Assembly (NCBI GenBank): GCA_014763715.1
Contig: JACXUV010000004.1
Coordinates: 1 to 64,000, forward strand
Direction of reading: 5' to 3'
Length of the DNA stretch: 64,000 bases
DNA from: Rhodobacterales bacterium
GTDB taxonomy: Bacteria; Pseudomonadota; Alphaproteobacteria; Caulobacterales; Hyphomonadaceae
Part shown: positions 10,910 to 53,342 of the stretch, piece after piece
Layout of the letters: every line of letters begins with the position of its first letter
How positions within the stretch are numbered: the stretch's first letter is position 1
The notes under the pieces: generated by a model
Databases searched by the model: none
Seen by the model: the letters and a program-made list of their open reading frames with translations, nothing else
What the model was told of the DNA's origin: nothing
Position numbers and translations under genes: made by a program

Positions 10910-10950
10910 GGGAGGAGTTCCTGTTGTGCGGAAATTGGAGTGTTGGCGGG

Positions 10951-10979
10951 CCTATAGCGGCGCCGGCACGCCGGAGCAA
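10951..10979 (-). promoter_or_regulatory. Predicted housekeeping promoter of ndk
   Basis: On the minus strand, TTGCTC (10979-10974) and TATAGG (10956-10951) are spaced by 17 bases. The extended -10 reads GCTATAGG, close to the Caulobacter housekeeping pattern GCTANAWC. It lies about 42 bases before the ndk ATG. Confidence 0.5.
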
Positions 10980-11055
10980 GGACAGAGCGCCGCCTTGCGC
11001 AATCCGATTGCAGAGACTAGGGCGCTCGGAGCACACAATCCGTAAGGTTCCGATC

Positions 11056-11391
11056 ATGAGCACGCTGCCGCCCTGCCCGAAATGTGGCTCCACCTACACC
11101 TATGAAGACGGCACGATGCTGGTCTGCCCCGAATGCGCCAACGAATGGTCTGCCACCGAGACTGCCTCATCGGACGAGAAAGTCGTGAAGGACTCCAACG
11201 GCAATCCGCTGGCCGACGGCGACACGGTGACGGTCATCAAGGACCTGAAGGTGAAGGGCAGCTCTCTGGTCGTGAAACGCGGCACCAAGGTGAAGAACAT
11301 CCGCCTCGTCGACGGCGATCACGACATCGATTGCAAGATCGACGGCATCGGCCAGATGGGCCTCAAGTCCGAGTTCGTGAAGAAGGCTTAA
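11056..11391 (+). CDS. yjdM: YjdM/PhnA-family zinc ribbon protein
   Basis: Small 111-residue protein with an N-terminal zinc ribbon, Cys7-x2-Cys10 and Cys24-x2-Cys27, followed by the YjdM core ([19 protein letters not shown] and a conserved [18 protein letters not shown] stretch). Named PhnA historically because it lies near phosphonate genes in E. coli, but it is not a phosphonatase and its role is unclear. Its TAA shares the palindrome TTAA with the holC stop codon on the other strand. Confidence 0.9.
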
Positions 11392-49298: not shown

Positions 49299-51452
49299 CT
49301 ACATGCCGGCGAGAACAGCCAGCAGAAGCAGCGCCACGATATTCGTGATCTTGATCATCGGGTTCACAGCCGGTCCGGCCGTGTCCTTGTAGGGATCACC
49401 GACCGTATCGCCCGTCACGGCAGCCTTGTGGGCTTCAGAACCTTTGCCGCCATGATGGCCGTCTTCGATGTACTTCTTGGCATTGTCCCATGCGCCACCA
49501 CCCGATGTCATCGAGATGGCCACGAACAGCCCCGTCACGATCACACCAAGCAGCATGGCACCGACAGCTGCAAACGCTGCGCCCTTGCCCGCAATCGCCA
49601 GGATCACGCCGAACAGAACGATCGGTGAGAGCACCGGCAGCAATGACGGCACAATCATTTCCTTGATGGCTGCCTGGGTCAGCAGGTCAACGGCGCGGCC
49701 ATAATCCGGCTTCACCTCGCCCTTCATGATCCCCGGCATTTCGCGGAATTGACGGCGAACTTCCTCGACCACAGCCTGGGCCGCGCGGCCCACAGCCATC
49801 ATCGACATGCCGCCGAAGAGGAATGGCAGCAGACCTCCGAACAGAAGGCCAACCACGACGTACGGGTTGGCGATGGAGAAGTTCACGACAACCCCGTCAA
49901 AGAAGGAGCCTTCAGTGGCGCGTTCCGTAAAGTATCTCAGATCCTCCGAATAGGCGGCGAACAGGACCAGCGCGCCGAGGCCTGCAGATCCGATGGCGTA
50001 GCCCTTGGTCACGGCTTTCGTCGTGTTTCCCACAGCGTCGAGGGCATCCGTCGTGTCACGCACTTCCGAGGGAAGCTCCGACATTTCAGCGATACCACCT
50101 GCATTGTCCGTCACCGGGCCGAACGCATCGAGCGCAACGATCATGCCCGCCAGCGCAAGCATCGTGGTCGTCGCGATGGCCACACCATAGAGGCCGGCGA
50201 GGTTATAGGTGGCGATGATGCCCGCAATGATGGTCAGCGCCGGCAGTGCCGTCGACTCGAGCGACACGGCGAGACCCTGGATCACATTGGTGCCGTGACC
50301 GGACTCCGACGCCTTGGCGATTGACCGCACGGGGCGGTATTTCGTCTCGGTGTAGTAAGCCGTGATGACCACGATAAGGCCCGTCACAACGAGCCCCAGA
50401 AGGCCGCAAAGGAACAGGTCCATCCCAGTGATTTCACCGGATAGACCGAGGGCCGTTGCAGCACCGTCAAGAACGCCGAACCCTGCAGGCAGAACCTGGC
50501 TGATAACGAGTGCGAGCGCACCGATCGACAGGACGCCCGTCACGATCAGGCCCTTGTAGAGTGCCCCCATGACGTCTGTCTTGCCGGGGCCGAGATTGAC
50601 GAAATAGGTGCCGATGATCGAGGTGATGATGCACACGCCGCCGATGGCGAGCGGGAGCAGCATAAGGTCACCCAGGTAGCTGGCGTCCGCGAAGTAGATC
50701 GCACCAAGGACCATCGTCGCAACCAGCGTCACGGCATAGGTCTCGAACAGGTCAGCCGCCATGCCTGCGCAGTCGCCGACATTGTCGCCGACGTTATCGG
50801 CGATGGTCGCAGCGTTGCGGGGGTCATCTTCCGGAATACCGGCTTCGACCTTGCCGACCATGTCGCCACCAACGTCCGCACCCTTGGTGAAGATGCCGCC
50901 GCCGAGACGCGCAAAGATCGAGATCAGGGATGCGCCGAAACCAAGCGCGACGAGGGAATCGATGATTTCCCGCTTCTGGTCTTCCTCAGTCAGGCTGAGC
51001 CCCATGACCATGGTCAGGAAGCCGTAATAGAGGACGATGCCAAGTAGAGCGAGGCCAACAACGAGCATGCCGGTAACCGCACCGGACTTAAACGCCATCT
51101 TGAGTCCGGCATTAAGACCGGATTTCGCCGCCTCGGTTGTGCGGACGTTGGCCTGCACCGACACTTTCATGCCGATGAAACCTGCGGCACCTGACAGGAC
51201 AGCGCCGACAATGAAGCCGAGCGGCTGCTGCCAGCTCTGGAATGCCAGTCCCAAGAGGACAACAACCACGACACCGACAATTGCGATGGTCCGGTACTGG
51301 CGGCCCAGATAGGCGTTCGCGCCTTCCTGAATAGCCGAAGCGATTTCGCGCATTCGCGCGTCACCCGCGGGGGCGGACTGGATCGAACGGGCCTGAATGA
51401 ACCCGTACAAAACCGAGATTACGCCCGCTGCGAGAGCGAGATAATACCACAT
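49299..51452 (-). CDS. hppA: Membrane-bound proton-translocating pyrophosphatase, K+-independent type
   Basis: Couples pyrophosphate hydrolysis to proton pumping across the inner membrane. The 717-residue protein has about 16 membrane segments and the diagnostic pyrophosphate-binding motifs [33 protein letters not shown] near residue 220, and a late [14 protein letters not shown]. In the segment [10 protein letters not shown] a lysine occupies the position that separates K+-independent (Lys) from K+-dependent (Ala) enzymes. AAGGAAACAAGG precedes the ATG. It lies downstream of a truncated thiL. Confidence 0.96.
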
Positions 51453-51481
51453 GAACCTTGTTTCCTTCCCTAGCCAAATCG

Positions 51482-51499
51482 AACCGGTTTTGCCCGGTT
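51482..51499. repeat. Inverted repeat upstream of hppA
   Basis: AACCGG and CCGGTT are separated by six bases, about 30 bases before the hppA start. Without a U tract on the minus strand it is not an obvious terminator. Confidence 0.35.
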
Positions 51500-51580
51500 T
51501 CTTCCTGAGCTTTCGTTATTATGGGTACTTTGCTGCCACCCCCTGACGTTACGTGCAAGATGCCTCACGTTTGAAGCGAG

Positions 51581-52285
51581 TCAGACCAGACCCAGTTCAG
51601 CCATGCTCGAAGCCGAGAGTTTCCGGTATGCAAGAATGCGGGCGTCACCCAATAGTCCGTCAGAAACATCCATTGATGCCGTCGCGTATTTCCGCAGGAG
51701 GTCAACGATACCGGGTGGGGCCAATGCGGGCTCCCTGTAGCGCCCCACAAATGGATCATCCATCTGCCCCACCTTGAGAGCCCTGAATCCCCTGCACGCA
51801 GCCCCGATCTGCCCCGTTACCCAGAGCACGTCACCAGCTTTTGCACCGCCACGCCGGACCGGCCCCTCCGGTCCGCAGGTGCCCGTTAGAGTAAGAGACA
51901 GAAACAGACCTTGCGGGCTGGCGGTCGTGTCCCCGCCGATGAGAGAGGCGCCCCAGCGAGCCAACTCCTCCCCCAAAGCCGCAGCGAAACGGGCAAGCTG
52001 GTCCTCTTCACGGCCTGTTGGCCAGCCCAGAGTTAGCAGGGCCTCATGGGGGCGCCCGCCTTTTGCGAGAATATCCGAGACATTGGTCCGCACCAGTTTG
52101 CGTGCCACAGTCTCAATCGGGTCATCGGGCAGGAAGTGTACGCCTTCCACCAGCGCATCCGTCGTGACGATCATGCGGCCGCTGGCCGATAGCTCCGCCA
52201 CATCGTCACGCAATGCCGCCGCCCCTGGCGCAGACACCAGAGGCGCAAAATAACGGGAGATCCAGTCGCGTTCGCTCACGTCCAC
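51581..52285 (-). CDS. thiL: Thiamine-monophosphate kinase, C-terminally truncated
   Basis: ThiL phosphorylates thiamine monophosphate to the active cofactor. The N-terminal two thirds are well preserved in these 234 residues: DDVAELSASGRMIVTTDALVEGVHF, NVSDILAKGG, SLIGGDTTAS and MDVSDGLLGDA. The usual length is about 310-330 residues. Here the frame ends shortly after MDVSDGLLGD, so the C-terminal domain with the GG(E/D)DYE motif is missing. Only 128 bases separate the stop from hppA and no other frame there continues the family, so this is a deletion rather than a simple frameshift. It may be a decaying gene. The start is GTG. Confidence 0.75.
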   Translation of the reverse strand: MDVSERDWISRYFAPLVSAPGAAALRDDVAELSASGRMIVTTDALVEGVHFLPDDPIETVARKLVRTNVSDILAKGGRPHEALLTLGWPTGREEDQLARFAAALGEELARWGASLIGGDTTASPQGLFLSLTLTGTCGPEGPVRRGGAKAGDVLWVTGQIGAACRGFRALKVGQMDDPFVGRYREPALAPPGIVDLLRKYATASMDVSDGLLGDARILAYRKLSASSMAELGLV

Positions 52286-52337
52286 TTAGCCATTTTCAAG
52301 GAAGCGTGACGTGCGGCTCGCCTGAACGCAAGGGCGA

Positions 52338-53297
52338 TCAGAGCCCTTCGCGGCCAATGGCGTAGAAACGTTCTGCCCGCTGGCGGCGCAATTCAGCCGG
52401 AGACAGCCCATCCAGCTCTTTCAGCGCTTGCTCAAGCGCCTTGGATGCCGTCGCCATGGCCCGCTGCGGGTCACGGTGCGCGCCCCCTACAGGCTCCTTG
52501 ACCACGTCGTCGATCACCTTCGTGCGCAGCAGGTCCGGCGCCGTGATCTTCATGGCATCCGCGGCATCCTTCGCCTTGGCCGCATCGCGATACAGGATGG
52601 ACGCACAGCCTTCCGGTGAGATCACCGAATAGATCGCATGCTCCATCATCAGCACCTTGTTGGCTGCCGCGATGCCGATGGCCCCGCCGGACATGCCCTC
52701 ACCGATGATCAGCGTGACGAACGGCACACCCAATGTCAGGCCGCGCTGCGTACCACGAGCGATTGCCTCGGCCTGACCACGCTCTTCCCCACCTTTACCA
52801 GGATATGCCCCGGCGGTGTCAGGGAAACTGAGGACAGGCAGATTGAACTTCTCGGCAAGGTCCATCAGGCGAACGGCCTTCCGGTAGCCTTCCGGGTGAG
52901 CCATGCCGAAATTGTGCTTCAGGCGTTTTTCGGTTGTACGGCCCTTTTCGTGTCCCATGATGACGACCGGACGGCCCTTGAACCGTGCCAGGCCACCGAT
53001 CACAGCCTCATCATTGCCATAGACGCGGTCGCCGGCGAGTTCCTCGAAATCCTCGAAGACATTTTCGATGAAGTCGCTGAAATGAGGCCGGTCCGGATGG
53101 CGGGCCACCTGTGTCTTCTGCCAGGCGCTGAGATCGGAATACGTATCCTTGAGCAGCTTCTGCGACTTCGCCTTCAGCTTGGTCAGCTCATCCGAAAGCG
53201 ACGGTCCGTCCTTGCGGCCAGACAGCGTTTCCAGCTCGGCGATCTTGGATTCCAGCTCTGCGATCGGCTTTTCGAATTCGAGATATGAAACTTTCAT
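52338..53297 (-). CDS. accA: Acetyl-CoA carboxylase carboxyltransferase subunit alpha
   Basis: Forms the carboxyltransferase with AccD, giving malonyl-CoA for fatty acid synthesis. 319 residues, with the family N terminus YLEFEKPIAELESKIAELE, DRPHFSDFIENVFEDFEELAGDR, the oxyanion region FPDTAGAYPGKGGEERGQAEAIA, and GEGMSGGAIGIA. The ATG at 53297 is chosen over a GTG at 53318. It lies downstream of the tad genes on the same strand, but its role is unrelated to them. Confidence 0.96.
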   Translation of the reverse strand: MKVSYLEFEKPIAELESKIAELETLSGRKDGPSLSDELTKLKAKSQKLLKDTYSDLSAWQKTQVARHPDRPHFSDFIENVFEDFEELAGDRVYGNDEAVIGGLARFKGRPVVIMGHEKGRTTEKRLKHNFGMAHPEGYRKAVRLMDLAEKFNLPVLSFPDTAGAYPGKGGEERGQAEAIARGTQRGLTLGVPFVTLIIGEGMSGGAIGIAAANKVLMMEHAIYSVISPEGCASILYRDAAKAKDAADAMKITAPDLLRTKVIDDVVKEPVGGAHRDPQRAMATASKALEQALKELDGLSPAELRRQRAERFYAIGREGL

Positions 53298-53342
53298 GGG
53301 CTGCAAAGTAGCAATCACCGGCTGACTCGCCTAGTGCCGACG

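Follow-up and report, generated by a model that had tools for sequence, protein, structure and literature searches.

A 250-bp gap truncates thiL in one draft genome of a genus that otherwise encodes full-length ThiL

We found that the thiL gene of a 3.55-Mb draft genome (G000; 128 contigs, completeness 100, contamination 0.27) lacks 250 bp that are present in nine aligned congeners, while 36 congeners encode a full-length thiL, no second copy was found in the genome, and the rest of the gene has not decayed. The gene lies in a window of 64,000 nucleotides on contig C35, which is the whole stretch analysed here, and the genus used for comparison is, by inference, Hyphomonas. Our leading explanation, to which we give about an even chance, is a recent loss-of-function deletion of 250 bp in this one genome that has left a young thiL pseudogene. 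Such a deletion would leave ThiL without the second half of its C-terminal domain and put the last codons out of frame, and the resulting product of 232–234 residues would be inactive. A recent loss-of-function deletion is thus the most likely reading, and an artefact or a minority variant comes close behind it.

The thiL frame and the 250-bp gap

The list of open reading frames (ORFs) places thiL on the minus strand at 52285..51581, between accA and hppA, as a frame of 234 residues with a GTG start that consists of 219 normal ThiL residues followed by 15 residues in a shifted frame. The alignment with congeners points to a second GTG, at 52279, as the probable true start; the GTG chosen by the ORF caller, at 52285, lies two codons upstream of it. 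The retained part (51629..52279, minus strand) covers the entire N-terminal AIRS domain and the beginning of the C-terminal domain as far as SMDVSDGLLGDARILA, and it includes the motif MDVSDGLLGD. The short protein matches the NCBIfam thiL model TIGR01379 with 168 bits over residues 5–219 (model positions 2–222 of 320), falling below the curated equivalog cut-off of 184.15, and it scores 90.9 bits against a cut-off of 204 with NF004354, the shortest ThiL model matched (273 positions, of which 23–211 are covered). Pfam searches recovered the N-terminal AIRS domain (PF00586, residues 31–136, 2.4e-20) and no match to AIRS_C (PF02769) at E values up to 1. The 311-aa ThiL of congener G006 is full-length, scores 213 bits with TIGR01379 and carries both domains, its AIRS_C match reaching 29.8 bits over a cut-off of 23.1. 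A preliminary description made from the sequence had reported a thiL frame of 234 residues without its C-terminal part, and the TIGR01379 score, the absence of AIRS_C and the congener alignment all confirm it.

Alignment with the nine congeners revealed one large gap in thiL, with 250 bp missing relative to 9 of 9, flanks that align cleanly on both sides, and a junction at 51628..51629 (minus strand). A loss of 250 bp is one base more than a whole number of codons, so the deletion and the frameshift are a single event. The preliminary description, which favoured a deletion over a frameshift, was therefore right about the deletion but not about the reading frame, as the deletion itself causes a frameshift. 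Beyond the junction, the tail YRKLSASSMAELGLV and its stop (51581..51628, minus strand) are formed from the last thiL codons and the bases downstream of the normal stop. The normal gene end, PETLGFEHG (the last nine codons) and its stop, is kept out of frame within this tail at 51626–51597, the normal-frame stop itself occupying 51599–51597. No continuation had been seen in the 128 bases before hppA; the end of the gene instead survives inside the ORF, in another frame.

Sequence context and soundness of the assembly

The gap could alternatively be an artefact of assembly or consensus, or a minority deletion picked by the assembler, in which case the organism's own thiL would be intact. We consider this a serious possibility, though one that stays below an even chance, and the assembly is indeed a draft in many contigs. 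Against it, the thiL site lies approximately 52 kb inside a 149-kb contig, and the two ends of the missing piece, judged on congeners, share an apparent microhomology of 0 bp for six of the nine and of 2 bp for the other three. Because this likeness amounts to at most 2 bp, there is no repeat to collapse. No direct repeat was found in the present sequence either, an observation of little weight since a collapse would leave one copy anyway.

A further argument against an artefact is that G006 and G004 each have a region of about 80 kb collinear with the window, with gene order shared along the window. We compared ORFs of at least 100 aa from these two 80-kb regions with the window. Coverage fell below 0.9 for six of the 57 rows from G006 and for six of the 58 from G004, each of them corresponding to thiL (coverage 0.66 and 0.70, respectively), to the two window edges, or to short, overlapping or start-site frames. 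Among G006 and G004 ORFs of 200 aa or more within the window, only thiL is cut short relative to both genomes; the other ORF of at least 200 aa with coverage below 0.9 is a 203-aa G004 frame whose match falls into three pieces and ends in a gene that is open at 10924–11391. The flagged in-frame stops all fall in upstream extensions of intact ORFs (one such ORF being that of 610 aa at 180–2012, which we read as aspS), in intergenic or antisense frames, or at the edges of the window. We therefore rejected general frame damage, thiL being the single gene affected.

Both neighbours of thiL are intact. Upstream lies accA (52338..53318, minus strand), the usual neighbour for the genus: all 16 congeners compared have it on that side of thiL, adjacent in 5 and separated by approximately 1.8 kb in 11, including all nine aligned. 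In the genome studied here only 52 bp (52286–52337) separate the two genes, and the approximately 1.8 kb of the nine aligned congeners is missing there. This gap holds a 583-aa ORF in G036, with partial, sub-cut-off matches to amidohydrolase families; the other ten congeners of this type were compared by gap size only, most having like sequence just ahead of thiL. The preliminary description had noted accA in place of nusB, the former correctly placed but normal for the genus, and had taken nusB to be missing. The latter claim fails, because contig C49 carries nusB next to ribH. Loss of nusB was therefore rejected; the gene is also distant from thiL in the single-contig genome G036 (1,984,266 for nusB versus 2,226,780 for thiL, about 240 kb apart).

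Downstream lies hppA (49299..51452, minus strand), encoding a 717-aa H+-translocating pyrophosphatase. Its leader (51453..51628, minus strand) overlaps the 3′ end of thiL, shows 92–95% identity to eight congeners, and is far more conserved than thiL itself; the deletion spares it except for a conserved GTTAACC edge. The leader contains GTTAACCTnCCGGAAAC...CTCGGCTTCGAGCATGG, followed by ACTCGC-N7-GnGAG and TTGC, elements that are largely kept in 17 aligned sequences. A search for known RNAs in the leader gave no Rfam match at gathering score and two hits far below it, and the covariation term was only −0.21 kcal/mol, with two-sided changes in 8 of 32 predicted pairs. The leader is probably a promoter or operator of hppA that overlaps thiL.

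The hppA gene itself is heterogeneous. Relative to G006, its identity is 97–98% in three neighbouring 150-bp windows and 85–97% in others. Elsewhere in the genus, the G035 copy is near that of G007 (pS 0.160) and not that of G064 (0.411), the near twin of G035 at accA (0.041). These mixed identities suggest that hppA is a mosaic within the genus as a result of recombination.

Age and distribution of the truncation

We then considered the age of the event from the codons that remain. None of the 71 retained-part residues that are invariant in 19 congeners is changed in this thiL. Over the 157.7 non-synonymous sites of these 71 codons, a simple Poisson estimate limits neutral drift to about 0.019 changes per site at the 95% level. 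A wider set of 53 sequences, in which the G012 gene is counted twice, gave 46 columns with 90% conservation, and these too are all unchanged. Measured against G031, the most distant of the nine and an outgroup by distance only, without a tree, thiL pN is 0.189, versus 0.191–0.215 for the eight other congeners. Its pN to the eight close congeners (0.144–0.169) exceeds all values among those eight (0.004–0.140); since tadB and tadC lean the same way, a longer branch seems a better reading than decay of thiL. Synonymous difference in thiL between these species is 0.63–0.74, near saturation. Old decay of thiL was rejected on the basis of the unchanged conserved residues and a pN to G031 that is not raised. 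Since the retained codons have not decayed, the loss should be young, and on this comparison of codons the deletion would be recent relative to the separation of the species, or else absent from the organism altogether. The lack of decay is also what would be expected under an artefact, where the real gene is intact.

The same conservation would be compatible with a protein of 232–234 residues that works as a minimal ThiL, either because it can do without the lost strands or because the new tail or a partner protein takes their place. We regard this as highly improbable. The gene does sit in its usual place, and all of the genus-invariant residues of its retained part are kept, but a young deletion explains that conservation equally well. 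The tail, moreover, is a shifted-frame readout of DNA that the genus conserves in another frame and beyond the gene, and none of 36 congeners has a short ThiL.

Across the genomes compared, 60 of 61, including 36 of 36 congeners, pass the full-length ThiL cut-off, the genome studied here being the sole exception. It is again one of just two exceptions in a sample of 398 genomes from across the order, each at least 95% complete, of which 396 exceed this cut-off; such rarity fits an artefact. The preliminary description had proposed that a short ThiL shared by relatives would mark a stable variant, and the outcome is negative in the genus: the truncation, as far as these sequences go, is not a genus-wide variant but an exception of one genome. 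Going by the listed E-values, the second exception in the order would be G254, a 1.8-Mb genome with a best E of 2.1e-27, and its position below the cut-off would be a point in favour of a minimal ThiL.

Ranked by best single match, five genomes of the order-wide sample, G254 and four of genus g22, are weaker than the present thiL (E 9.8e-49). The four g22 genomes (G087, G128, G137 and G183) have best single matches between E 1.2e-38 and 9.9e-43 and two matches each, and the order-wide tally presumably joins the match pieces of such genomes. The thiL genes of G254 and these four genomes may be divergent, interrupted or truncated. Because these five score lower by best match, a weak or broken ThiL is perhaps not unique to the present genome in the order. 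Nothing on a truncated thiL in Hyphomonas was found among the literature matches listed.

Thiamine supply and the lost domain

A second thiL, which the preliminary description had suggested looking for, was not found in the genome with either TIGR01379 or AIRS_C. The other matches are SelD, assigned by family score, and proteins that we read from frame layout and sequence as PurL (two AIRS_C matches within one 586-aa frame) and PurM. A search for the lost 93 residues, with the corresponding part of the G006 protein as query, recovered G006 itself, G004 and G036 but nothing in the present genome at E values up to 10, so the missing fragment of a minimal ThiL is not supplied from elsewhere in the genome.

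The genes for making thiamine phosphate (TMP) are kept. thiC lies directly behind a TPP riboswitch (the one found under stricter filters), thiD and thiE are present, and thiG is present at 364.5 bits by Pfam, with no NCBIfam match at 1e-10. Downstream of thiC is a 478-aa gene (L113, 9040–10476 on contig C78) with weak, sub-cut-off matches to ORC-CDC6-like and AAA ATPases; the same spot holds other ORFs in G004 and G036, judged by their first residues only.

Alternative sources of thiamine diphosphate (TPP) were looked for through two protein families. No match to thiamine pyrophosphokinase (TPK_catalytic) was found in the present genome, and one weak, sub-cut-off hit (in G004) appeared among seven congeners. 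The ThiB-type model TIGR01254 exceeded its cut-off in 0 of 8 genomes; the hit in the present genome reached 35.8 bits versus a cut-off of 93.4, and phosphonate-binding families scored somewhat better, also below cut-off. With no TPK or ThiB over cut-off and the TMP-making genes kept, TPP should therefore come from ThiL, on which the genus would otherwise rely for conversion of thiamine phosphate to thiamine diphosphate. ThiL looks indispensable here. For comparison, a thiL deletion mutant of Pseudomonas aeruginosa is reported to be viable only with about 5 mM TPP (PMC13254938).

If the deletion is present in a living organism, its carrier would need TPP or another TMP kinase, and the deletion could be tolerated because TPP or TMP is imported or another kinase substitutes. 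We think it very unlikely that such a route exists here. TPP import is known in some bacteria, for example through ThiBPQ of E. coli, and uptake had been raised in the preliminary description, but the ThiB-type results above speak against it. So do the lack of a TPK match, the position of the only TPP riboswitch found, ahead of thiC, and the assignment of the other AIRS-family proteins to SelD, PurL and PurM. Loss of thiL has been suggested for some Proteobacteria in one survey (PMC11346370), which classes some genomes as 'NthiL-others', lacking thiL despite other thi genes. The present genome resembles these strains in that the genes for making TMP are present and the final kinase is not whole; unlike that survey, which concerns presence and absence, our case is a truncated gene that is whole in 36 of 36 congeners.

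A free-living bacterium with no other thiL than the short allele would be at a severe disadvantage; this point, like a pathway logic that requires ThiL, favours an artefact or minority variant. The cost of a fixed, real deletion is our main reason for giving an artefact a chance of about one third.

We also examined what the deletion would do to the protein. The lost part is equivalent to the C-terminal 93 residues of the full-length congener protein (311 aa) and takes with it 12 columns conserved at 90%, including GDDY, which the short protein lacks. The C-terminal domain of the full-length H. atlantica protein, modelled with a mean pLDDT of 90.1, contains seven strands, at residues 152–156, 202–205, 224–228, 256–260, 279–286, 290–295 and 298–300, and the break falls at residue 218, so that the last five strands come after it and are lost. 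With the same 14 sequences as input, the model of the short protein reached an overall pLDDT of 69.5, with block means of 31–45 over residues 201–234 and values below 50 at residues 203–234. Its first 30 residues are also poor (blocks of 42–49), so low pLDDT is not limited to the broken domain, and AlphaFold confidence is merely an indirect sign of folding. In solved ThiL structures (PMC6416309), ATP is bound where the subunits of the dimer meet, and the TMP/TPP site lies within a single subunit, between its two domains. With that site built from both domains, a product that has lost most of its second domain should not bind TMP, and the models suggest that it should not fold its substrate-binding domain. 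The minimal working ThiL raised in the preliminary description is thus disfavoured by the poor model of the short protein and the absence of a parallel in the genus, even though the retention of the TMP synthesis genes would suit it. Taken jointly, a functional minimal ThiL or an unrecognised TPP route that freed thiL to decay has only a slim chance of being correct.

The short protein therefore resembles known ThiL (TIGR01379; PDB 3C9R–3C9U, 5CC8 and 3MCQ) over residues 5–219, aligned to model positions 2–222 with 46 of 46 conserved residues present, and differs from it in lacking the last 93 residues, GDDY and five of seven C-terminal strands. As a recent deletion, the locus is like a young bacterial pseudogene produced by an out-of-frame internal deletion, being intact in congeners, without a second copy found and otherwise undecayed; unlike a typical young pseudogene, it affects a step that is expected to be essential in the absence of a TPP source. 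If the gap is an artefact, surveys of vitamin dependence should not list this genome among those without ThiL. A real deletion, by contrast, would make the strain a natural thiL mutant in which the searched part of thiamine synthesis is intact, and it would offer a ready test of whether TPP or a substitute for the TMP kinase arrives from outside.
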